Source of the DNA: Desulfuromonadaceae bacterium
GTDB lineage: Bacteria; Desulfobacterota; Desulfuromonadia; Geobacterales; Pseudopelobacteraceae
Length of the DNA stretch: 53,144 nucleotides
Direction: 5' to 3'
Assembly: GCA_028712665.1 (NCBI GenBank)
Contig: JAQTRC010000011.1
Location: 1 to 53,144, forward strand
Notes under the pieces: model-generated
The model's database searches: none
Seen by the model: the letters and a program-made list of their open reading frames with translations, nothing else
What the model was told of the DNA's origin: nothing
Shown: one piece after another, positions 3,181 through 14,700 of the stretch
How the letters are laid out: the number at the start of each line of letters is the position of its first letter
Numbering within the stretch: position 1 is the stretch's first letter
Made by a program: the position numbers and the translations under genes

Positions 3181-4548
3181 ATGTCTGGCAAAATTATAGC
3201 GATCTTAATGGGATGTACTTTGCTATCAACAGCCGTTCAGGCCAAGGAGCATCCAGGAAAAGAGAAGATACTCAAGGATGGTTACCAGGGTCCCAAAACG
3301 TGTGAAAAATGCCATCCCGGAAAAGCCGCTGAGTTTCTTAAAACGGTCCATTGGAAGCATGCCTCAAAAGTGGATCATGTTGACAACATCAACCCAAACG
3401 AAGAATACGGCATGAAAAACCGTATCTACACTATGTGCAACGGCAACGACATCGTCAATAATCTGAAAGAAGTGCCGCCGAACGCTCTCGGAAAGACCAA
3501 GTTTACCGGTTGCAATACCTGCCATCCGGGTGATCACACCAGTGATGTCGGTAGCACCGGACCCCAGGCCGAACAAGCCATAGACTGCCTGATATGCCAT
3601 TCTACGAAGTATGATTTCAGCAAAAGAAAGCCGGTCAAGGACAGTAACGGCAAGGTCGTGATGACACAGGATCGGAGCACCGAGGCAGCCGCCAACGTTG
3701 GGAGGCCTACCATAAAAAATTGCATGGTCTGTCACGAGGCGGCCGGTGGCGGGGCCATGATCAAACGTGGATTTTCAATGGCCAAGGATGCCGAGGTTCA
3801 CGTTACAAAGGGTATAATTTGCATTGACTGTCATCAGGTAAAAAACCATAAATTCCCAACTGGTCGTGATCCCAACAACTGGGCTCATGACGGTATCTAC
3901 ATGACCTGTGTTGGTGAATGCCACAGTGTCAAACCACATAGTGATGCCGATTACAACAGGCATACAGCAAAAATTGCCTGCCAAACCTGCCATATCCCGA
4001 AAACTGGCGGGGCATTTTCGAAAGACTTCACCAAATGGGAGAAGCAATCTAACGGTTTTTATGAGCCTTCCACGTTGAAGCGCGAAGTTAATGAAACTGC
4101 TCCCGTGTACGCTTGGTACAACCTGACCGTCAGCAATACGCCAAAGTTTATCGGCCCTAAAGGGAGCAGAACCGATGGTAAAAGCAAGATTTACCCGTTC
4201 AAAATTTTCCAGGGTAAAGCCTATTTCAACAAGAAGAACGGTCAGCTGCTTTCAATGGATTTTGCTCCGCCCATAGCAAATGGTGATTCACTTGCCGGAG
4301 TTGCGTCTGCCGCCAAAATACTTGGCATAAAGGATTATGAACCGGTTCCTGGATGGCAGACAATATACTTTGGAAGCAACCATCAGGTTGCACCCAAGAA
4401 CAAGGCGCTGATCTGTGCCAACTGCCATGCGCTAAATGGAGTGCTTAATTTTAAAGAGCTGGGATACAGCCCCAAGGAAGCGGAGAAACTTACCAATCCA
4501 GAACTATATTTTGAAAAATTGCTCAAACTGCAGCAGGAGAATGAATAG
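3181..4548 (+). CDS. Octaheme c-type cytochrome, tetrathionate-reductase (OTR) type
   Basis: 455 residues with a signal peptide ending about QA/K at residue 21-22. Eight heme motifs are seen: CEKCH (C41), CNTCH (111), CLICH (136), CMVCH (181), CIDCH (214), CVGECH (243, a three-residue spacer instead of two), CQTCH (267) and CANCH (412). The long heme-free stretch between hemes 7 and 8, and the length, fit the periplasmic octaheme family typified by Shewanella OTR, whose members reduce tetrathionate and also nitrite or hydroxylamine in vitro. Family assignment is from layout and is moderately sure; the true substrate is not visible. The start follows gaaaggaag (about 3168-3176). It is separated from the molybdenum enzyme genes by a terminator but points the same way, and the rhodanese gene upstream suggests sulfur or selenium chemistry. 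Confidence 0.82.
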   Translation: MSGKIIAILMGCTLLSTAVQAKEHPGKEKILKDGYQGPKTCEKCHPGKAAEFLKTVHWKHASKVDHVDNINPNEEYGMKNRIYTMCNGNDIVNNLKEVPPNALGKTKFTGCNTCHPGDHTSDVGSTGPQAEQAIDCLICHSTKYDFSKRKPVKDSNGKVVMTQDRSTEAAANVGRPTIKNCMVCHEAAGGGAMIKRGFSMAKDAEVHVTKGIICIDCHQVKNHKFPTGRDPNNWAHDGIYMTCVGECHSVKPHSDADYNRHTAKIACQTCHIPKTGGAFSKDFTKWEKQSNGFYEPSTLKREVNETAPVYAWYNLTVSNTPKFIGPKGSRTDGKSKIYPFKIFQGKAYFNKKNGQLLSMDFAPPIANGDSLAGVASAAKILGIKDYEPVPGWQTIYFGSNHQVAPKNKALICANCHALNGVLNFKELGYSPKEAEKLTNPELYFEKLLKLQQENE

Positions 4549-4665: not shown

Positions 4666-6864
4666 GTGTCGCTAAAATTTTCACGCAGGACATTCCTCAA
4701 GGCTACAGGTGCGGCCACAGCAGGTATAACTGTCGCCGCAACATTGCCGAAGGTCTTAAAATCATGGGCAGAAGAGGAGGGGCAGAAGGAGCTGAAACAG
4801 ATCCCGACCTTCTGCGAACTCTGTTTCTGGAACTGCGGCTTGATCGCCAAGGTCGAGAACAACAAGGTCGTCAAAATCGACGGCAACCCGTTGAGCCTTC
4901 GTGGACGGGGCCGTCTCTGCGGTCGCGGCAACTCGGCGCTGGGGGCGCTCTATGACCCGGACCGCCTCAAATTTCCGATGATTAACGTAGGCAAGCGAGG
5001 TGAACCGGTCTGGAAAAGGGCAACCTGGGATGAAGCACTCGCTCTGATCGCGCAGAAGATGAAAGGGATCAAGGAGAAACATGGTGCAGAGTCCATGGCG
5101 CTGTTCTCGCATGGAACCGGTGGAGCTTTCTGGAAGCACCTGCTCAAGGCATACGGTTGCAGCAACTACACTGCCCCCTCGTTTGCCCAATGCAGGGGTC
5201 CTCGTGATATAGGGTTTTACCTGACCTACGGGGCAGATGTCGGTTCACCCGAATACTACGATTTCAGCAAAAGCAAGTACATTGTTCTGCTCGGCTCGCA
5301 CCTCGGAGAGAATGCACATAACAGCCAGGTGCAGGACATCATGGGTGGGCTGGCCGATGGTGCAAAGCTGACAGTGGTCGATCCACGCCTCTCCAATATC
5401 GCCTCCAAGGCCGACCGTTGGCTGCCGATCAAACCTGCTACCGATATGGCGCTACTATTGGCCTGGATCAGGATTATCATTGAAGAGGGTTTGTACGACA
5501 AGGAGTATATTGAAAAATATGCTTCCGGATTCAGCGAACTGCGCGCGGCTGTGCAGCAGTATACCCCGCAATGGGCCGAGGCCGAGACAACCATCCCGAG
5601 CGACACCATCGTCAAGGTCGCCCGCGAGATGGGTAAGAACGCTCCGCATGTCTGCGTCGGCGCCGGTCGCTACTCAGTCTGGTATGGTGACGATACCCAA
5701 CGCAGCCGGGCCATCGCCATACTCAATGCCCTGCTCGGCACCTGGGGGCGCGAGGGTGGGTATTTCTTGCCTGCCAAGGGTGGTGTGCCCGAATATCCGG
5801 GCCTCCCGGCATATCCGCCCCACGAAGATGTCCCCAAGCTGGATGCCGCCTATCCGTTTGCCGCACTCCAGACGACTACCTCCATCAAGCAGGCCTCTAT
5901 CACCGGGAAGCCGCACCCGATCAAGGGGTGGTTCATCTACGGCTGCAACCTGATGAAGACCATGCCGGACAAGCAGGAAACCATCAAGGCCCTCCAGAAC
6001 CTCGATCTTGTCGTTGCCATTGATGTGCTGCCGGTCGACATCATCGCCTGGGCCGATGTAGTTCTGCCGGAATGCACCTATATGGAGCGCTACGACAACC
6101 TCAATATCGGCAAGTTCAAGGATCTGGAGATATCCCTGCGGCAGCCGGCGGTTGATCCGCTCTGGGAGTCCAAACCATCCTGGTGGATCACCAAGGAACT
6201 TGCCGGCAAGCTTGGCCTGGCCTCCTACTTTCCATGGAAGGATGGCGAGGAGTATCTGGCCAAACGTTGTGAGGCGGGTGGCATTGATTTTGCCGAACTA
6301 AAGAAAAAAGGGGTCCTCGTAAAGACGGACAAGTCGGCCCCTTACATCACCGCCGACAGTCAGCCGGAATTTGGCACCCCTTCCGGTAAGATAGAGCTGT
6401 ACTCCAAACAGCTGGAGGAGAAGGGGTTTGATCCAGTACCGAAATACACCAAACACCCTCAGCCCCCTGCCGGCCATTTCCGTCTGCTGTTCGGTCGTTC
6501 ACCGCTGCACAGCTTCTCACGCACCACCAACAACTTTATGCTGACCGATCTGCAGAAAGAAAACGCACTCTGGATCAACGCAAAAAAGGGGAAAGAGCTG
6601 GGATTGGCAAACGGGGAATATGTCTTACTCGTAAATCAGGATGGGATTGCTGCACCAGGCAAGATCAAAGTCAAACTGACCCAGCGTATGCGCGATGACG
6701 CCGTCTATATGTACCACGGCTTCGGCGTTCATTCAAAAGGAATGACCCGGGCCAATAATCAGGGAATAGCGGATGATGATCTGATCTCGAAATATGTAAT
6801 TGACCCGATCATGGGCGGTACCGCCATGCGCGGCATTTTTGTCAAGATTGTGAAGGGGGCCTAG
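4666..6864 (+). CDS. Tat-exported molybdopterin oxidoreductase, catalytic subunit (PsrA/PhsA-like)
   Basis: 732 residues. Start is GTG at 4666 behind AGGAGG (4655-4660); the overlapping ATG at 4664 leads to a stop after two codons. The N-terminus has a twin-arginine motif (SRRTFLK) and hydrophobic segment, so the folded enzyme goes to the periplasm through Tat (tatC is at 43651-44496). A [4Fe-4S] site follows, C50-x2-C53-x3-C57-x27-C85, then the molybdopterin-guanine-dinucleotide domains. C176 (AQCRG) sits where this branch of the DMSO-reductase family places the Mo ligand, and Cys there is typical of polysulfide, thiosulfate and tetrathionate/selenite-type enzymes. Followed 2 bases later by an NrfD-like subunit and a ferredoxin subunit, giving a standard quinone-coupled three-part reductase (or oxidase). 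The substrate cannot be read from the sequence; neighbours favour sulfur or selenium compounds. Confidence 0.88.
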   Translation: MSLKFSRRTFLKATGAATAGITVAATLPKVLKSWAEEEGQKELKQIPTFCELCFWNCGLIAKVENNKVVKIDGNPLSLRGRGRLCGRGNSALGALYDPDRLKFPMINVGKRGEPVWKRATWDEALALIAQKMKGIKEKHGAESMALFSHGTGGAFWKHLLKAYGCSNYTAPSFAQCRGPRDIGFYLTYGADVGSPEYYDFSKSKYIVLLGSHLGENAHNSQVQDIMGGLADGAKLTVVDPRLSNIASKADRWLPIKPATDMALLLAWIRIIIEEGLYDKEYIEKYASGFSELRAAVQQYTPQWAEAETTIPSDTIVKVAREMGKNAPHVCVGAGRYSVWYGDDTQRSRAIAILNALLGTWGREGGYFLPAKGGVPEYPGLPAYPPHEDVPKLDAAYPFAALQTTTSIKQASITGKPHPIKGWFIYGCNLMKTMPDKQETIKALQNLDLVVAIDVLPVDIIAWADVVLPECTYMERYDNLNIGKFKDLEISLRQPAVDPLWESKPSWWITKELAGKLGLASYFPWKDGEEYLAKRCEAGGIDFAELKKKGVLVKTDKSAPYITADSQPEFGTPSGKIELYSKQLEEKGFDPVPKYTKHPQPPAGHFRLLFGRSPLHSFSRTTNNFMLTDLQKENALWINAKKGKELGLANGEYVLLVNQDGIAAPGKIKVKLTQRMRDDAVYMYHGFGVHSKGMTRANNQGIADDDLISKYVIDPIMGGTAMRGIFVKIVKGA

Positions 6865-6866
6865 AC

Positions 6867-8024
6867 ATGCAACTATTTGGAGTTCTTATTCCTGAAAAGG
6901 CACAGTTAATGTCTACAGTGAACGATGTGGCCAAAGGAAGAGCCGGCATCTCACTGTACGCATCACTCTTTGGCCTGCTGATCGGATTCTACGCTATCGC
7001 GGCCATCTTCATCCAGGGGCACGCCCATACCATCAACACCTCCAACCTGGTTCCATGGGGATTGCAGATATCGACATATATCTATTTTGCGCTACTCAGC
7101 ACAGGCTGTACCTTCGTCAATTTCTTCGGGCACCTATTTTTTGAAAAGCAGTACAAGCCATTCGCGTCCCGGATCATTTTTGTCGGTATTATTACAGCCT
7201 TGGCAGCATTCTTCTCTCTGGCAACCGAGATGGGACGCATAGACCGGATGTACAATTTCATACTTTCTCCCAACCCGAAGTCTCCCATGTTCTGGATGGG
7301 CATCTGGTATACCTGTTACCTGATTATTATTACCTGGGAGTACATCAATATCCAGACCAACAAACATTCCAGCAGGATCATGTGGGGCGCTTTTTTCATC
7401 GCCGTATTCACCCACAGTACGCTGGGAAGCCTGCTGGGATCGGTCAGTTCACGTGTCTACTACTACAGCGCACTGATGCCGATTTACTTCCTTTTCATCG
7501 CCTTCCTGACCGGTTGCTCGCTGACTACGATCATCGCCGCCATAACAGTCAAGCAGAAAAAACTGGACGAGAACTTTCATCTTCATCCGTTTATAACATT
7601 GCTGAAGGTTGGATTGGGCCTGGCGCTTGTGATCTCCTTCTGGCGAACCATGATCGGTCTCTCGGCTCATCTGGAGGGATCCGAGGTGTTCTCTCTGACG
7701 TTGATTAATAGCGTACTGTTCGGTATCGTGGTCGTCATCATAATCCCATATATTCTGCTCAAAATAGGCAAAAGCGCAAACTGGCTGCTTTTTGTCGGAC
7801 TCTTCATCATGGGAACCCAGCTTAAAGCCCGTAACGATCTGGTTGTAGGCGCGTTCAAGGTTCCGGTCTTCAGGGTCTATGATATGCCTGAAGTAGTCCA
7901 CTACACACCATCTATTTACGAGAATCTCGTAGTTGTGGCATCCGCTTCGCTCGTTATGGTGCTGTATATTGTATTTGAGCGCTCAGGCGTTTTTGATGCC
8001 CGGAACATCAAGGAGGACCACTGA
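6867..8024 (+). CDS. NrfD/PsrC-like membrane quinol subunit
   Basis: 385 residues with about ten hydrophobic helices across the whole length and short loops, matching the NrfD/PsrC family that exchanges electrons with the quinone pool and anchors the Mo and Fe-S subunits. The start at 6867 follows GGGGG four bases upstream of the previous gene's stop; a second in-frame ATG at 6909 (MSTVND) is also possible and removes only 14 residues. It is 2 bases from the catalytic subunit and 2 bases before the ferredoxin subunit, so the three are surely one operon. In this family the subunit has no heme and quinone binding is near the periplasmic face. Confidence 0.88.
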   Translation: MQLFGVLIPEKAQLMSTVNDVAKGRAGISLYASLFGLLIGFYAIAAIFIQGHAHTINTSNLVPWGLQISTYIYFALLSTGCTFVNFFGHLFFEKQYKPFASRIIFVGIITALAAFFSLATEMGRIDRMYNFILSPNPKSPMFWMGIWYTCYLIIITWEYINIQTNKHSSRIMWGAFFIAVFTHSTLGSLLGSVSSRVYYYSALMPIYFLFIAFLTGCSLTTIIAAITVKQKKLDENFHLHPFITLLKVGLGLALVISFWRTMIGLSAHLEGSEVFSLTLINSVLFGIVVVIIIPYILLKIGKSANWLLFVGLFIMGTQLKARNDLVVGAFKVPVFRVYDMPEVVHYTPSIYENLVVVASASLVMVLYIVFERSGVFDARNIKEDH

Positions 8025-8026
8025 AA

Positions 8027-8743
8027 ATGGAACAGTTTGAAGGTAAAGATATTTTGGAAATCATGCAGACTGATCTGCAGCGCGCCCTGAAAAAACCGCG
8101 CAAGGAGCGGCGCTGGGCCATGGCAATTGATTTGAAGAAATGTATCGGTTGCCACGCCTGCACCACTGGTTGCATGTCTGAAAACCTGACTCCGCCCGAT
8201 ATACACTACCGCCCGGTCAAGGAAGAGGAGATCGGCGAATACCCCAACACCAGCATGCGCTTTCTACCCCGCCCCTGCATGCAGTGTGATTCCCCGACCT
8301 GCACCCCGGTATGTCCGGTTACGGCCACCTATAAACGGGATGACGGCCTGGTGGTCATCGACTATAATAAGTGCATCGGCTGCCGTTACTGCATTGTAGC
8401 CTGTCCCTACGGAGCCCGTTCGGCTGATTCAGGACATTACTACACCGGCGATTTTCACGACAAGACATACGAGGTGGAGAACTCCGGCGAATATGGCAAG
8501 AGCTTCAAACGGAAGAGCCACTGGCATTCGCCCATAGGCAATGCCCGTAAATGTCACTTCTGCATCCACCGTGTTGAAAAGGGTGAATTGACCCGCTGCA
8601 CCACGACCTGCCTTGGTGGGGCTACCTTCTTTGGCGATATCAATGATCCGGAGGCTTTAATCACCAAGCTGATATCCAAGCTTAATGTGTTCAGATATCG
8701 GGAAGAACTGGGAACTAAACCTATGGTGTATTATATAACGTAA
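8027..8743 (+). CDS. Four-cluster ferredoxin subunit (PsrB/NrfC-like)
   Basis: 238 residues, no signal peptide. Sixteen cluster ligands appear in four groups: CIGCHACTTGC, CMQCDSPTCTPVC, CIGCRYCIVAC, and CHFC...RCTTTC. Together these give four [4Fe-4S] clusters wired as in PsrB, PhsB, DmsB and TtrB, carrying electrons between the NrfD-like quinol subunit and the Mo subunit. Lack of its own signal fits hitch-hiking export with the Tat-signal-bearing catalytic subunit. The N-terminal 30 residues before the first cluster are somewhat longer than usual and basic (KKPRKERR). Starts 2 bases after the NrfD gene with AAGGAGG at about 8009-8015. Confidence 0.9.
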   Translation: MEQFEGKDILEIMQTDLQRALKKPRKERRWAMAIDLKKCIGCHACTTGCMSENLTPPDIHYRPVKEEEIGEYPNTSMRFLPRPCMQCDSPTCTPVCPVTATYKRDDGLVVIDYNKCIGCRYCIVACPYGARSADSGHYYTGDFHDKTYEVENSGEYGKSFKRKSHWHSPIGNARKCHFCIHRVEKGELTRCTTTCLGGATFFGDINDPEALITKLISKLNVFRYREELGTKPMVYYIT

Positions 8744-8776
8744 TTCATTACTGAAAATCCTGTCGAGGGGGGAATC

Positions 8777-9121
8777 ATGAGATTCAAATTTATCTGGTTA
8801 TTGATAGTATTGACTGTAGCGGTCTGCGGGCTTGCTTACGGGGCCGCCATGCAGGATATCATCTATCAGGGCGATAAGGCTTCGGACGAGGTAATATTCC
8901 ATGGAGACAAGCATCTGAAGAGAGGTTTCAAATGCGAGGCCTGCCACAATAAGGAGATGTTCCCGATAAAGAAAAAAGGGGCGACGGTAATAACCATGAA
9001 GGCTATCCAGCAGGGTAAACTCTGCGGGAAATGCCATAACGGCAAGACAGCTTTCGGCATTGACCATAACTGCAACAGATGTCACCCAAAAAAGGGACCT
9101 GATACAATCATTTATGACTAA
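8777..9121 (+). CDS. Triheme c7-type periplasmic cytochrome
   Basis: 114 residues with a signal peptide cut near residue 23 (YG/AA). Three heme motifs, CEACH, CGKCH and CNRCH, and extra histidines (FHGDKH, FGIDH) suited to bis-His ligation give a cytochrome c3/c7 fold. It starts 33 bases after the ferredoxin subunit behind GAGGGGGG (8765-8772) and so belongs to the same operon. It most likely shuttles electrons in the periplasm between the molybdenum complex and other multiheme cytochromes. The spacing of the first and second motif is wider than in the PpcA family, so it is c7-like rather than a PpcA orthologue. Confidence 0.87.
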   Translation: MRFKFIWLLIVLTVAVCGLAYGAAMQDIIYQGDKASDEVIFHGDKHLKRGFKCEACHNKEMFPIKKKGATVITMKAIQQGKLCGKCHNGKTAFGIDHNCNRCHPKKGPDTIIYD

Positions 9122-9221: not shown

Positions 9222-9446
9222 ATGAAAAAAATCGTAACGATGATTGTAGCAGCAATGATGGCCCTGAGTTTCTCGATGGTTGCCGTGGCAGCAGAGGAAA
9301 AAGCAGCTGATAAATCTGAAATGAAGGACGCCAAGAAGGTGAAAAAAGACGCGAAAAAGGATAAGAAAGACGCCAAGAAAGTCGAGAAGAAAAAAGATGA
9401 GGCCAAGCCTGCCGCCAAAGGCAAGAAGGAACTCTCCGGCTGCTAA
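9222..9446 (+). CDS. Small Lys-rich exported protein with C-terminal Cys
   Basis: 74 residues. A signal peptide (MKKIVTMIV..., cut about VAVA/AEE at residue 23-24) is followed by a mature chain of about 50 residues that is almost half Lys, with an alternating KK/DAKK pattern and many Glu/Asp/Ala, then a C-terminal LSGC. A good ribosome site (AAAGGAG, 9208-9214) and a strong terminator support expression. No domain is recognised. The single terminal Cys after a highly basic tail, and the same Gly-Cys ending in the small protein at 1168-1491, suggest a shared modification or metal/heme-related role, but this is speculation. Confidence 0.72.
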   Translation: MKKIVTMIVAAMMALSFSMVAVAAEEKAADKSEMKDAKKVKKDAKKDKKDAKKVEKKKDEAKPAAKGKKELSGC

Positions 9447-9917: not shown

Positions 9918-10056
9918 GAATCGGATACTTGCAGCCGTGGGTCCTGTATGCCGATTGCTCTTCTCAAGAAAGACGATCCCATTAAGCCGGATGGGTGTAT
10001 TATGTTACAAGAGCCTCCGGCATGAGAATATATTTGTTCCATTATGAGGTAACCTG

Positions 10057-10236
10057 ATGAAAGATCTGCTGTTGATAATCGGCTTTTTTGCAATCTGGAT
10101 CGTTTTGCAAAAATTCATTCTCCCCCGCCTCGGGGTACCCACCTGAATGTCCAACTCCTGTGACCTCGGGGACCGAGGTACAAAAAACATAGAACAGTCG
10201 ACAGAGAAGAAAGAGCCAAACATTCCTCAACCTTGA
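10057..10236 (+). CDS. Candidate small membrane selenoprotein (UGA = Sec at residue 30)
   Basis: The frame from ATG 10057 reads 29 codons to a TGA at 10144-10146, then continues open for 29 codons to a TGA at 10234-10236, giving 59 residues if the first UGA is selenocysteine. The N-terminal part is one hydrophobic helix (about residues 3-20), then LPRLGVPT-U-MSNSC, a U-x4-C redox-like pair, and a charged tail. GAGGT at 10046-10050 gives a good ribosome site 6 bases before the ATG. A stem-loop at 10159-10182 fits the position and shape of a bacterial SECIS. The conserved-looking motif straddles the UGA, which argues against a simple 29-residue peptide. Function is unknown; a membrane-anchored thiol/selenol redox role is inference. 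No selA, selB or selC gene is in the window. Confidence 0.62.
10159..10182 (+). promoter_or_regulatory. Candidate bacterial SECIS element
   Basis: Within the coding RNA, ACCTCGG (10163-10169) pairs with CCGAGGT (10173-10179) around loop GGA, and TGT (10159-10161) pairs with ACA (10180-10182) with one bulged G at 10162. The loop begins 23 nt after the UGA and starts with G, which fits the published bacterial SECIS rules (apical G, loop about 16-37 nt downstream). Confidence 0.6.
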
Positions 10237-10262
10237 TGAATGCGGCGCGCTAATTATCGTTG

Positions 10263-12167
10263 ATGTTTAAGCCACTATCAAGAAACCAAAGGTCTTCTCC
10301 GGAAATGCTGATCCGTACCGCCTGGCAAGGCAAAATCCATTTCACAATTCTCCTTTTGTTCTCTCTTCAAACATTCCTGTCAGGATGCCAGATAGGAATG
10401 AAAGAGTCCTCATGCGTCCGTTGTCATAAGGGTCTTGAGCATGTTTCGAAAACCCATGGTGACTGTGTTTCATGTCACGGCGGCAAGCCGCTGGAAGAGG
10501 CGAAGGAAAAGGCGCACCAGGGTATTTTCGGCATCGCCAATCCTGAATATATCGGACGATGGGAGAATGGGTGCGCTACCTGCCACAGGTATCAGTTCGA
10601 GAGGATGAAGAGCAACCTGATGTACACTGCAGCAGGAATGATCCGGAATATCCAGCTGACTTGGGAGGGGGAGGATGGCAACAGTTATACCACCCATGGC
10701 GAAAAGCAGTTCGATGCTGCCGGCAAGCCGTTTTCGCCCAAACCGGTGGCTGAACTGGATAACCTTTCCGGCGAGCTGTACCGCAAATTTTGCGCCCGCT
10801 GCCATGTCGGAGCTGAAACTACAGGAGTCTATAGCGCCAGTCATGCCTCCGGATGTGCCGCCTGTCATTTCCCATGGAACGATACCGGCACCTATCAGGG
10901 AACCGACCAAACCATGAGGGGGAAGGCGGGGCACTCAGCAAGCCACATCATGACCCCACTACCGGATATTCAGGTCTGTTCCCGCTGCCACAACCGCAGC
11001 GGACGTATCGCTCTCTCCTATCAAGGGCTGTATGACGGCAACAATGGAATGGTGCCGACCAGTAACGGCGAAGCCGGACCGGTCATGGTCAGCGGCGCCA
11101 GAAACCTGACCCACATTACGGCTGATGTCCATTTTGCTGCCGGTATGGAGTGCATCGATTGTCACACTTCGCGCGATCTGATGGGTGACGGTTTCGCCTA
11201 TCTCAACATGTACCTGCAGACAGAAATATCCTGTGAAGATTGCCACGGCAGTGCTGCGGAGATTCCGCGCTACCGCGAAATTATCCGCGAAAATGATGAG
11301 GCAGCGCGCGAATCGCGTTCATACAAACTGCCAATGCAGTCCGGAATGCGTATGATTCAGACTTCGAAAGGGCGCAGCTATTCAAATGTTTTTTACAGTC
11401 AGGGCACGATCTGGCTGCAGGGGAAGCGAAGCGGCAAACTTCATAAAAGCAAGGTTATAACAGCCACTCCGGAACATACTGTCGCCGGTCACGAACGCCT
11501 TGAATGCTACAGCTGCCATTCACGAGCTGTTCCGCAATGCTATGGCTGCCATACCACCTATGACACGCAGCAGGACGGGCATGATTTCATCAAGGGGGAC
11601 TATACCCCAGGTTCGTTCAGCGAAACTGAGGATTACCGGATGCTCTACCCTTTTCCGCTGGCGCTAAACCAGCGTGGTCGCATCTCTCCGGTTACCCCCG
11701 GTTGCCAGACGTTTATAACCGTGATAGAGCCGGATGGTAACCACTCTAAAACGGAGTATGTCTCAAAATTCAAGGGGAAACAACAACTCCGCTTTGCCCC
11801 GTTTTATTCCCATAACACAAGCAAAAAGGCTTTAGGATGCGCCGAATGCCACAGCAACCCTGCATTCCTCGGTTTCGGCCAGCATATCGTTGAGGGAAAC
11901 AGCATAAAGGGGACTCTGATCTGCGAACGCTCGGATAATAAACCGCTGGATGGCTTTCTTACGATGAGAAACGGGCGGGTAAAATCCTATTCCGCGATAA
12001 CCCGCGAAAATTCCCGCCCCTTAAGCGGAGCCGAAGTGAAGCGAACGTTGGCTGTCAATCTCTGTCTCCCCTGCCATGACAAACCGAAAGACCCGATCTA
12101 CCGGAAAGGAGTCGATTATCGTGCGCTTGACGATGCTCTTCATCGCCGCCTTCTGTCTGGGCCTTAG
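10263..12167 (+). CDS. Dodecaheme lipoprotein cytochrome c of a Cbc-like complex
   Basis: 634 residues from ATG 10263 (a TTG at 10260 abuts it). A second in-frame ATG at 10305 gives a tidier lipoprotein signal (hydrophobic core then lipobox LSGC); neither has a strong ribosome site. Twelve heme motifs are visible: CVRCH, CVSCH, CATCH, CARCH, CAACH, CSRCH, CIDCH, CEDCH, CYSCH, CYGCH, CAECH and CLPCH. It leads an overlapping operon with a Rieske protein and split cytochrome b, so it likely receives electrons from menaquinol oxidation (or the reverse) in the periplasm. The C-terminal half (LECYSCH... to CAECHSNPAFL) resembles the same region of the next gene, so the two arose by duplication. The layout resembles the cbc clusters of Geobacter sulfurreducens such as cbcMNOPQR; orthology is not tested. 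Confidence 0.85.
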   Translation: MFKPLSRNQRSSPEMLIRTAWQGKIHFTILLLFSLQTFLSGCQIGMKESSCVRCHKGLEHVSKTHGDCVSCHGGKPLEEAKEKAHQGIFGIANPEYIGRWENGCATCHRYQFERMKSNLMYTAAGMIRNIQLTWEGEDGNSYTTHGEKQFDAAGKPFSPKPVAELDNLSGELYRKFCARCHVGAETTGVYSASHASGCAACHFPWNDTGTYQGTDQTMRGKAGHSASHIMTPLPDIQVCSRCHNRSGRIALSYQGLYDGNNGMVPTSNGEAGPVMVSGARNLTHITADVHFAAGMECIDCHTSRDLMGDGFAYLNMYLQTEISCEDCHGSAAEIPRYREIIRENDEAARESRSYKLPMQSGMRMIQTSKGRSYSNVFYSQGTIWLQGKRSGKLHKSKVITATPEHTVAGHERLECYSCHSRAVPQCYGCHTTYDTQQDGHDFIKGDYTPGSFSETEDYRMLYPFPLALNQRGRISPVTPGCQTFITVIEPDGNHSKTEYVSKFKGKQQLRFAPFYSHNTSKKALGCAECHSNPAFLGFGQHIVEGNSIKGTLICERSDNKPLDGFLTMRNGRVKSYSAITRENSRPLSGAEVKRTLAVNLCLPCHDKPKDPIYRKGVDYRALDDALHRRLLSGP

Positions 12168-13323
12168 CTCGGAATCCGCGGCTCTCCACAAGGGGCTGGC
12201 ATGCGGTTCCTGCCATGTTCAGGGTGGGGCTGCCAGCGATCCGGCTGCCGCTTCCGGCAGGGCAGCCGGATGTATCGGCTGTCACTCCGGCCATGATCGG
12301 ATCTTCGATCACGCCATGACGACCCGTAGCGGAGAAAAAACTTTTGTAGAGCGGAGTTACGCCAAAGTCGATTCGGGTTTCTGGGAGAAAAACTGCACCT
12401 CCTGTCACGTAGGAGGATGCCTTGATTGCCACGGCACGCGTGACGGTATTGCAAAACCGTCGGTTGCGGTATGTCAGAGGTGTCACAAAGGATATTTTAC
12501 CGGCTGGGACTACTCAGGACGTGCGCCACGCGAAGACAACATGCGCTACCAGCGGGGGATCGCTGTCAATGGCGAAACCTTTCTGAAGATGCTTCCCGAT
12601 GTACATTACAGCTCCGGCATGACCTGCGGAACCTGCCACTCGATGAACAGTTTGGCAGAAGGGAAAACATCATCCAAAACTTGCCGCGATTGCCATAAAC
12701 CGGATCGGAAGGTGATCGAGCATCGTATTACGGCACATATGGAACGGCTGGAATGCTATGCCTGCCACTCGGCCTGGGGAGCACAGGAATACGGCACCTT
12801 CTTCCTCCGCTTTCGCGACCAGCGTATGAAAGAGGATTTCGACCTTAAGCCGGGGAGCAGCGCTGAATACCTCCGAAGCGCCTATCTGAAAAAACAGGAT
12901 GCGCCGCCGCTCGGGATCAACTCCCGTGCCAGGGTCAGCCCGATCCGGCCGATGTTCATTGCCTATTATACCGATATCATGACCGCCAGAAATAACGGCC
13001 CTGAAAATATACTGCTGACTGCCGAGTGGCGGGCATACTTTCCGCACACTGTTCAACGGGGGAGCGTTACCTGCGAAGGGTGTCACGACAACCCGGCCCG
13101 CTTTCTGCTGGAACCGGAATCCATGCGGGTATACAATCTCAAGAAGGATGGCATGGGGCTGGAATCGTTCTGGCTTCAGAAAGGTCAACGGGTAATCAAT
13201 GGCAGTTTCATGGAGTTGGCTCGCTATCAACGCATGAGCGGCAAAAGCCCGACTTATAAAAAGGCGTACCTGGAAAAATGGAAAATATTCCTCAATCGCG
13301 TCGAAGATTCATCACGTCATTAG
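12121..13323 (+). CDS. Nonaheme periplasmic cytochrome c of a Cbc-like complex
   Basis: 400 residues. I choose the GTG at 12121, which has AAAGGAG 9 bases upstream (12105-12111) and leads straight into a signal peptide; an ATG at 12076 in the same frame would put a polar extension before the signal. It overlaps the preceding gene by 47 bases. Nine heme motifs: CGSCH, CIGCH, CTSCH, CLDCH, CQRCH, CGTCH, CRDCH, CYACH, CEGCH. The region from RLECYACH to [13 protein letters not shown] parallels the C-terminal half of the dodecaheme protein. It is an electron-transfer partner of the Rieske/cytochrome b pair encoded just downstream. Confidence 0.85.
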
Positions 13324-13676
13324 CTCTGCTGATTGTATCTGCTGGAGCCCTGGTGCGCTACCTTACCCCTCGCCTTTCCAGGAAAAGAGAGGTATTGGTC
13401 AGCGTTGCCAGCGCGGACGTACCGATTAACGGAGCTCTGCTCTTTCGCAGTGAACGCCTGGCCCTGCTCCGGGATGAGAACGGTTTCAACGCCCTGAGTC
13501 TGATCTGTACCCACCTGGGGTGTACGGTCACCGTCACCGAAGAGACACTTTCATGCCCCTGCCATGGCAGTCTGTTCGATCGGCGGGGCAGCGTGCTGAA
13601 GGGGCCGGCCGACAAACCTCTCGAAAAATTGGAGCTGATTGAGCATAATGGCATGATAAAGGTCTACGGCAGATGA
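13278..13676 (+). CDS. Rieske [2Fe-2S] protein
   Basis: 132 residues. Twin-arginine-type N-terminus (SRRRFIT) with one membrane anchor, then the two Rieske cluster boxes CTHLGC (from C77) and CPCHGS (from C93). It is the high-potential electron acceptor of a quinol:cytochrome c oxidoreductase. It begins 46 bases inside the nonaheme gene and its end overlaps the cytochrome b gene by 4 bases (ATGA), so translation of the set is coupled. Short compared with mitochondrial or b6f Rieske proteins, as is usual in bacterial Cbc-like complexes. Confidence 0.93.
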
Positions 13677-14293
13677 TACAGGATTTCCTTAAACATCTAT
13701 TTCCTCACGTGGTGCTGGAAAAAAACCTGCGCATAAGCTACACCTTCTGTCTGGGAGGCCTCGCGTTCACCGCCTTCCTGATCATGCTAGCCAGCGGCAT
13801 GCTGTTGATTGTATACTACCAGCCAACGCCCGAAAGGGCGTTCAATTCCATCCTATTCCTGGAATCATCAGTCTGGGGGGGAAAATACATCCGGAGTCTG
13901 CATCGCTTGACTTCCCATCTGCTACTGCTGTTGATCTTCCTGCATACCCTGCGGGTGATCCTGACCGGTGCCTGGCAGCGTCCCCGGCAACTTAACTGGA
14001 TTATAGGCTGCATGCTGCTCTTCCTGGCCCTGTTTGAGGCGTATACCGGCTACCTGCTTCCGAGCGATCAGCTGGCTTACTGGGCTACCCAGACCGGCAT
14101 GGAGCTACTGGCTGTTGTCCCGCTTGGAAGCTTTCTGCGCTCATTGCTCGTACCGGACGGAGTCGGACAAGGTTTGTCCCTGCTCCGGTTTTATGCCCTC
14201 CACATAGTCATAATCCCATTGCTTCTACTGTCATTATCCTTCCTGCACTTCCATAGGGTCAGAAAAAACAAGGGAGTCCTACCATACCTATGA
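13673..14293 (+). CDS. Cytochrome b, N-terminal (b6-like) subunit
   Basis: 206 residues with four hydrophobic helices. Paired histidines for two b hemes are visible in helix 2 ([17 protein letters not shown]) and helix 4 (YALH ... LHFHR). This is the heme-bearing, quinol-oxidising part of a split cytochrome b, as in cytochrome b6. Overlaps the Rieske gene by 4 bases and the next gene by 4 bases. Confidence 0.92.
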
Positions 14294-14700
14294 AAAATGG
14301 ATTCATAAAAAGTTCTCCGCATTTTTTCAAACTCATAACCCGTTCAATGTACGGGTTTGTTGTTATTCTCCTATTACTTGCAACATTTATCACCGCACCG
14401 CTACAGATGCAGGCGAATCCTGCAGTTACGCCAAACCCTGCCAAGTCGGCCTGGTTTTTGCTCTGGATTCAGGAAGTGGTCAGCTGGTCTCGCCTGATGA
14501 TTTATCCGGTAATGCTGCTGGGTTGTCTTTTTCTGTTTCTCCCCTGGTTGCCAGGCTCCGTTCGCATCCATCGGGCGAGCTGGTTTCCACGTGGGCAGAG
14601 GATTGTTTCAGCGGCCACAATCTTTTTGGCAGGCGCCATCCTGATACTTACCGTCATAGCTCTGTTCTTCAGGGGATCCAATTGGTCTTTGGCATTCTAG
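14290..14700 (+). CDS. Cytochrome b, C-terminal (subunit IV-like) subunit
   Basis: 136 residues with three hydrophobic helices. A segment NPAKSAWFLLWIQE resembles the PEWY region of cytochrome b6f subunit IV, although the exact PEWY is not kept. This subunit completes the quinol site with the b6-like protein. It starts with an ATGA overlap on that gene, and the next cytochrome starts 19 bases before its stop. Confidence 0.85.
   Translation: MKNGFIKSSPHFFKLITRSMYGFVVILLLLATFITAPLQMQANPAVTPNPAKSAWFLLWIQEVVSWSRLMIYPVMLLGCLFLFLPWLPGSVRIHRASWFPRGQRIVSAATIFLAGAILILTVIALFFRGSNWSLAF

Follow-up and report, generated by a model that had tools for sequence, protein, structure and literature searches.

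The probable selenoprotein gene and its surroundings

The window, i.e., the whole stretch of 53,144 nucleotides that was analysed, carries on its + strand a small gene at 10057..10236, in which 29 codons from an ATG are followed by a UGA and then by 29 more open codons. When TGA is translated as U, the product begins MKDLLLIIGFFAIWIVLQKFILPRLGVPT-U-MSNSCDLGDRGTK... and its entire sequence is MKDLLLIIGFFAIWIVLQKFILPRLGVPT-U-MSNSCDLGDRGTKNIEQSTEKKEPNIPQP, that is, 59 amino acids with selenocysteine (Sec) at residue 30. The ribosome-binding site GAGGT (10046..10050, +) is located 6 nt 5' of the ATG. The UGA read as Sec occupies 10144..10146 (+), and codon 35 (10159..10161, +), a conserved Cys at position +5 relative to Sec, completes a U-x4-C pair. 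This codon sits within the basal part of a SECIS-like hairpin (10159..10182, +). The elements named in the original prediction for 10057-10236 (+), namely the 59-codon frame, the GAGGT site, the UGA at codon 30 and the hairpin, were all found in place.

Respiratory genes lie on both sides, as had been predicted, and the sulfur/selenium-type module and quinol oxidoreductase operon proposed for the two flanks can be refined to a PhsA/NrfD-type molybdoenzyme and a set of ext selenite/tellurite-reduction genes. Upstream, at 4666..9121 (+), are found a PhsA-like molybdoenzyme (below the model cut-off), NrfD, a 4Fe-4S protein and a triheme cytochrome c7. The next gene downstream is extM (10305..12167, +; NF040943, 1038 bits for a cut-off of 800), a 12-heme cytochrome of the selenite/tellurite reduction operon with 12 CXXCH motifs, the frame of which is open from a TTG at 10260. 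It is followed at 12076..14700 (+) by genes for an extN/extO-type cytochrome c, a Rieske protein, cytochrome b and extQ, assigned by profile matches (cytochrome b by Pfam only).

Three other frames of this region can be mentioned. A 467-aa protein at 1597-2997, in which several rhodanese stretches and one CXXCH are seen, is similar to the selenium-related rhodaneses (NF041203, TsoB) at scores below their cut-offs. At 3181-4545 is found a multiheme cytochrome similar to the tetrathionate-reductase-family octaheme type (TIGR04315, 157 bits; cut-off 375), a family that is listed with a Sec form in a 2026 inventory (PMC13188914). A 74-aa Lys/Ala-rich protein at 9222-9443 has, by eye, a signal-peptide-like start.

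The position of the small gene recalls that of ExtKL, for which a UGA-coded Sec was proposed in silico in Geobacter (PMC1914089) and which is encoded 5' of extM in G. sulfurreducens (PMC5877670). ExtKL was not seen adjoining extM in the window, where 10305-14700 comprises the extM to extQ genes, and the small gene occupies its slot. However, ExtKL (NF040886) is a 49.5-kDa cytochrome with 5 hemes, whereas the window protein has 59 aa and no CXXCH, and gave no match in NCBIfam at E up to 10, NF040886 included.

Distribution of the family

A protein search with read-through of the UGA in the 117 genomes of the window's order returned 106 matches (weakest E 1.1e-5) in 97 genomes, the window's own genome being counted. 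The latter harbors a second copy (L039, G000:C111:6288-6446) with its own UGA, located in an operon with a pump, a C_GCAxxG_C_C protein and a YgaP-like protein. Copies aligning from residue 1 (97 in the order) are 46-67 residues long, with a median of 52.

In the window's phylum, 168/395 sampled genomes match at E up to 0.01, at least two of them only at E near 0.009; TGA was present in every match among the matches listed, and the 40 loci picked from the phylum matches all read ...GVxTU... or nearly so. Two Sec-free peptide patterns, applied to one genome per species, yielded 74 loci. Fifty-five of these (54 plus L183) were read and all have TGA at the Sec position, including loci labelled Planctomycetota, KSB1, Acidobacteriota, Myxococcales, Nitrospirota, UBP1 and Alphaproteobacteria; the other 19 are apparent duplicates of loci from the order search. 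Cultured relatives of Geobacter such as Citrifermentans bremense and Geomonas silvestris are among the carriers of the gene. Within the Acidobacteriota, 87/347 genomes are positive at E up to 0.01. At a limit of 3e-7 there are 80 matches, distributed over 79/347 genomes; 79 of these matches have TGA and one is without a stop. Nine rows with weak matches in this phylum (E 1e-4 to 0.01), among which G808 and G760 were read, were discarded as chance matches. Only 2/378 genomes of Pseudomonadota match at E up to 0.001, one being the seed genome, the sole good match in these 378 genomes, and the other a weak match (E 2.8e-4). Phage records gave zero matches, and plasmid records no good relative, their sole match (E 0.9) lying inside trbE. 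By sequence comparison, the gene is thus a member of a widespread family and is not peculiar to Geobacter.

Comparisons across the family were made on 211 loci: 104 from the order search, 49 from the pattern scan, 18 from the Acidobacteriota search (4 of them Cys forms, leaving 207 Sec loci) and the 40 picked from the phylum. Five apparent duplicates among the 54 pattern-scan loci, plus L183, were left out of this set. Two degenerate second-type copies, L142 (G083:C11:681787) and L143 (G076:C1:614255), found in two genomes of one genus, were likewise omitted from the codon, covariation and 211-locus counts; they retain the UGA and the hairpin, with both Cys+5 and G-4 changed to Arg. One more row, short on upstream sequence, was omitted from the codon-level analysis.

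Conservation on both sides of the UGA

In all 106 copies of the window's order, TGA is the first in-frame stop and falls at the same residue. T-1 and P-7 are present in 106/106, and W-16 and C+5 in 104/106. Over the 207 Sec loci, P-7 and G-4 occur in 207, T-1 in 206, Cys+5 in 185 and a Cys in the tail in 203; the exceptions are the 22 loci with no Cys at exactly +5 and the 4 with none in the tail. Since 49 of the 211 loci were found via conserved residues and since, outside the order search, the first TGA was taken to define the Sec register, these 207-locus counts are partly selected, which does not apply to the 106/106 TGA. In an alignment of 25 sequences, Trp14 is invariant. An in-frame UGA at a conserved residue together with conserved coding sequence 3' of it, as expected of a selenoprotein gene, is present in 106/106 copies, and homologs do not stop at this UGA.

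At the codon level (103 copies), the Cys codon at +5 differs in 49% of pairs, all differences being synonymous (TGC/TGT); for codon +2, 77% of pairs differ, and synonymous differences make up three quarters of these. Such synonymous variation argues for selection on the protein after the UGA. The third positions of codons +7 and +8, which lie in the stem of the hairpin, are nearly fixed (0.15 and 0.20) and synonymous change is rare there, which points to selection on the RNA.

It could be proposed that the UGA is an ordinary stop after which translation restarts at an adjoining AUG (UGA-AUG), yielding two peptides of 29 residues each, the first in the membrane and the second soluble, with the hairpin acting as a regulatory element or terminator. 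A restart codon is usually present, residue +1 being Met (ATG) in 155/207 Sec loci, but in 29/207 the +1 codon is outside ATG, GTG, TTG, CTG and ATH. Moreover, the true stops of the family are mixed (83 TAA, 78 TGA and 46 TAG in the 207 Sec loci), so that the presence of TGA in 106/106 copies at the Sec residue does not match the behavior of an ordinary stop: TAA and TAG are used freely where the gene truly ends and never as the first in-frame stop of these copies.

The SECIS-like hairpin

The minimum-energy fold of 10159-10182 has 10 pairs and a bulge. Its core stem comprises seven pairs (10163-10179, +) and its apical loop is GGA (10170-10172, +). The predicted 10-bp stem and apical G were thus recovered, the stem with a bulge, while the loop begins 24 nt after the UGA instead of the 23 nt first given. 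Taken by itself, the window hairpin is unremarkable (z = -1.43; 15/200 shuffles equally stable), a weakness that would suit two separate peptides, and the case for a SECIS element therefore rests on covariation among relatives.

In a set of 99 distinct sequences, standard pairing is seen in 87% of the cells of the seven stem pairs, as compared with 33-53% when the stem is slid by 1-3 bases and with a shuffle mean of 74%. Two-sided changes amount to 108 in register vs. 37.9 +/- 4.5 in shuffles (0/500 as high) and 13-28 in the slid versions. The number of pair types over the same 99 sequences shows no excess over shuffles (186/500 as high). The GGA apical loop is found 24 nt after the UGA in 60/99 of them. 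The 38-nt stretch after the UGA has a mean z of -1.97 over the 207 Sec loci vs. simple shuffles; in the four Cys forms, z values are 0.39, -0.36, -0.69 and -1.65. Stretches taken at other offsets had values of 0.25, -0.45, -1.11 and -0.20, the Sec position being 3-6 nt off in some rows. One Cys form retains fairly good folding in the SECIS stretch (z -1.65), which counts against the proposed reading. A search of Rfam at E up to 0.1 returned nothing relevant. In the proposed mechanism, SelB carrying Sec-tRNA-Sec would bind the hairpin just 3' of codon 30 and would thereby insert selenocysteine at the UGA.

Cysteine forms and the selenocysteine machinery

An early reading held that Cys forms of the family do not exist. 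It was overturned by the Acidobacteriota match without a stop, which is a Cys form (...GIGTC-MSGAC...). In the order to which this form belongs, 99/257 genomes match at E up to 0.001 and four matches have no stop, with Cys at the Sec position in 4/4: GIGTCMSGAC (G701), GIPTCMSNSC (G1240), GVPTCMSNSC (G1262) and GVPTCLSNSC (G1307). The Cys that had been suggested as a check at the position of residue 30 was accordingly found in four relatives.

SelB is encoded in one of these four genomes (G1262), and no SelB match was obtained in the other three. Homologs with Cys at the Sec position, mainly in genomes lacking the machinery (3/4 with no SelB match), are a further mark of a selenoprotein. In the same order, SelB was searched for in 20 of the 95 genomes with a Sec form, chosen mostly among those with the highest scores, and in 20 of the 158 gene-negative genomes: it scored over the cut-off in 18/20 Sec-form genomes, with one 231-bit fragment and none in G1290, and was found in 14/20 negatives. 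G1290, a Sec form with no SelB match, and G1262, a Cys form with SelB, both count against the reading. The difference between Cys and Sec forms has a Fisher p of 0.008 when the fragment is counted as SelB.

As regards the window's own genome, the absence of selA, selB or selC would have told against Sec insertion; SelA (603.3 bits), SelB (357.9 bits) and tRNA-Sec (77.5 bits) are all present over the cut-off. In the window's order, 12 of the 97 family-positive genomes and all 20 negatives were tested, and SelB was found in 12/12 and 10/20, respectively (p = 0.004). With 26 further positives and 20 negatives from the phylum, the figures become 35/38 and 28/40 over the cut-off (p = 0.02). The three positives lacking SelB comprise one 85%-complete assembly and two genomes with congeners having both genes. 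SelB is also over the cut-off in 12/12 tested genomes of loci from other groups, the search for which did not require Sec.

The four homologs that continue through the position with Cys, three of them in genomes with no SelB match, are difficult to reconcile with a stop and restart, and two separate peptides appear highly improbable. The comparison between genomes indicates instead that 10057-10236 is almost certainly a genuine gene for a selenoprotein of the SelB type. The reading as a small membrane selenoprotein passed all the computational tests run; a redox role is proposed for it.

Comparison with known families

Pfam gave two matches for the window protein, both under the cut-off. For 25 diverse members, the best E-values were 0.0029 in Pfam (PF04602, mycobacterial arabinan synthesis) and 0.028 in NCBIfam, and no family in these libraries fits. 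Among the 119 selenoprotein families of the 2026 inventory, none of those in its Table 1 fits by name or motif (PMC13188914). The family was not found among the papers listed by text searches of the literature (main texts, mostly from open journals), and searches with its sequence strings returned unrelated words among the matches listed. The family was thus not found in the libraries, inventory and literature searched here.

Thioredoxin-like selenoproteins with CxxU or UxxC motifs are described as likewise relying on SelB and SECIS and as having Sec with a nearby Cys and a presumed redox role (PMC13188914). By contrast, the present family displays U-x4-C in 185/207 Sec loci, and prediction gives it a single membrane helix and not a thioredoxin fold, the modest-confidence model consisting of a helix at residues 2-21.

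Gene neighbourhood

Neighbours were counted as loci having a given gene within 1.5 kb on the same/opposite strand (n = 211), using profiles built here; the families were chosen post hoc from the neighbours themselves, and a single representative of each was compared with Pfam to check its name. Eight families recur: YgaP-like transmembrane protein (33/0), AcrB-type permease (31/2), FmdB (30/2), C_GCAxxG_C_C (16/0), rhodanese (16/2), ArsR (16/2), metallo-beta-lactamase (10/0) and DUF302 (8/0). At 1.5-3 kb all are near zero except ArsR (8/22), and at 3-4.5 kb rhodanese reaches 7/0 and metallo-beta-lactamase 4/0. At least one of the eight is found on the same strand within 1.5 kb in 66/211 loci and none in 145/211; no universal operon partner was found across the 211 loci. 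The loci are not independent, the window's order supplying 21/33 of the YgaP-like, 21/31 of the pump and 16/16 of the C_GCAxxG neighbours. Outside this order (107/211 loci), same-strand counts are 26 for FmdB, 12 for YgaP-like, 10 for the pump, 8 for ArsR, 8 for DUF302, 4 for rhodanese and 0 for both C_GCAxxG and metallo-beta-lactamase.

Three further neighbours within 1.5 kb were rejected as partners: CcdA (3 same, 30 opposite) and TlpA (9 same, 29 opposite), which are mostly on the other strand, and Fur (0 same, 9 opposite), which is always so. The same-strand TlpA loci, 9 in all, come exclusively from other orders than that of the window. A PII-like neighbour (3 on the same strand) had no Pfam match. 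In one Acidobacteriota genome (L293, G757), the copy lies, by eye, between a rubrerythrin-like-looking protein and an apparent cytochrome bd subunit I.

Given the setting of the window copy, the selenoprotein might be regarded as a small structural subunit of an ExtM-Q or PhsA/NrfD-type complex, in which Sec would coordinate a heme or a metal instead of serving as a free thiol/selenol relay. In three loci (the window and two others), the distance from the UGA to the opening of the extM frame is 84-110 nt, and NrfD homologs are encoded ~0.7-1.7 kb upstream on the same strand in G046, G144, G214 and G437. Against this, there is no general respiratory partner, ExtM homologs being found in 4 and PhsA homologs in 8 of the 211 loci; the genes that recur nearby concern transport, sulfur and regulation, and the second copy of the same genome is in an efflux-type operon. 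A structural subunit of this kind is therefore considered improbable.

The recurrent neighbour genes suggest sulfane-sulfur, selenium or metalloid stress, and a role in such stress is proposed on that account. In E. coli ygaVP, the ArsR regulator YgaV controls ygaP and responds to sulfide (PMC9774250). Two neighbour types are shared with this system, the ArsR regulator and the YgaP transmembrane domain (PF11127), but the likeness concerns the gene neighbourhood only, the text consulted naming no selenoprotein (PMC9774250). The sulfide response of ygaVP would fit the neighbour set of the family, by analogy only.

A different use of the same neighbours can be envisaged, in which the protein would bind a soft metal or metalloid (arsenite, copper, mercury or similar) for an ArsR-controlled RND pump, redox chemistry being secondary. 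The AcrB-type permeases (31/211 loci) and ArsR proteins (16) encoded on the same strand within 1.5 kb lend themselves to this, as do the Cys residues of many neighbour ArsR proteins (10/16 at the best column). Nevertheless, sulfur chemistry would account at least equally well for the YgaP-like, DUF302 and rhodanese neighbours, and the same ArsR/YgaP pairing in E. coli answers to sulfide (PMC9774250). Metal binding as the main role seems unlikely, if somewhat less so than a structural one.

Protein anatomy and proposed function

A single membrane helix is predicted at codons 2-21 (10060..10119, +), on the basis of the alignment and of AlphaFold2 modelling with 12 sequences, which gave one helix at residues 2-21 (pLDDT about 85) and a low-confidence tail (mean pLDDT 65 overall). 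The U-x4-C pair beside one membrane helix that had originally been proposed is upheld by these data, at moderate confidence as regards the helix. The latter is followed by the segment ILPRLGVPT-U-MSNSC, which would place Sec30 and Cys35 at the membrane surface. Lys and Arg residues average 0.4 on the N-side of the helix, 1.8 in the 12 residues before Sec and 3.0 in the 15 after. The topology of membrane proteins follows the positive-inside rule. Applied here, the excess of Lys/Arg C-terminal of the helix suggests an N-out, C-in orientation, and charge alone thus suggests that the membrane surface bearing Sec30 and Cys35 is the cytoplasmic one.

Small single-pass membrane selenoproteins are known in eukaryotes, namely SELENOK and SELENOS, with Sec in the cytosolic tail near the C-terminus and, as in eukaryotes generally, a SECIS in the 3' UTR. 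In the present family, by contrast, Sec comes soon after the helix, and homology is not claimed.

At the membrane surface, Sec30 and Cys35 are probably joined by a reversible Se-S bond. The selenol together with Cys35 would act there as a chalcogen/thiol relay or as a ligand for soft metalloids, and the window copy would serve the adjoining ext selenite/tellurite-reduction genes. It is a weaker proposition, to be held tentatively, that the protein serves in the handling of sulfane sulfur, selenium or metalloids across the family. Taken as a whole, the window gene is very likely, as judged from sequence comparisons, to be a member of a widespread family of single-pass membrane selenoproteins, for which a redox or ligand role at the membrane surface is proposed.

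Significance

Ordinary gene callers would end this gene at the UGA. Published screening rules would also tend to miss the family, as far as can be judged from two accounts. In one screen, frames of at least 90 residues were required, or 80 for two SelW genes (PMC1242214); in another, a candidate with no known Sec homolog was kept only when Cys homologs accounted for two or more of its ten best hits, and the authors state that apparently every known selenoprotein has Cys homologs (PMC12013277). A protein of such small size, the Cys forms of which are very few, suits both rules poorly, and further such genes may therefore be hidden.

The reach of the family, by comparison, is considerable: it is found in about four of ten sampled genomes of the window's phylum (168/395) and in over one in five Acidobacteriota (79/347). 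More speculatively, and with some doubt, it may be one of the most widespread bacterial selenoprotein families, in which Sec is the default and Cys is rare and derived. The family would then be the selenium-bearing component of an undescribed inner-membrane module (ArsR, RND pump, YgaP-like, DUF302, FmdB, rhodanese) for reactive sulfur, selenium or metalloids, from which a copy would have been recruited into the ext operon in Geobacter relatives. With a conserved U-x4-C at the predicted membrane surface and neighbours that recur, the function of the family is testable.
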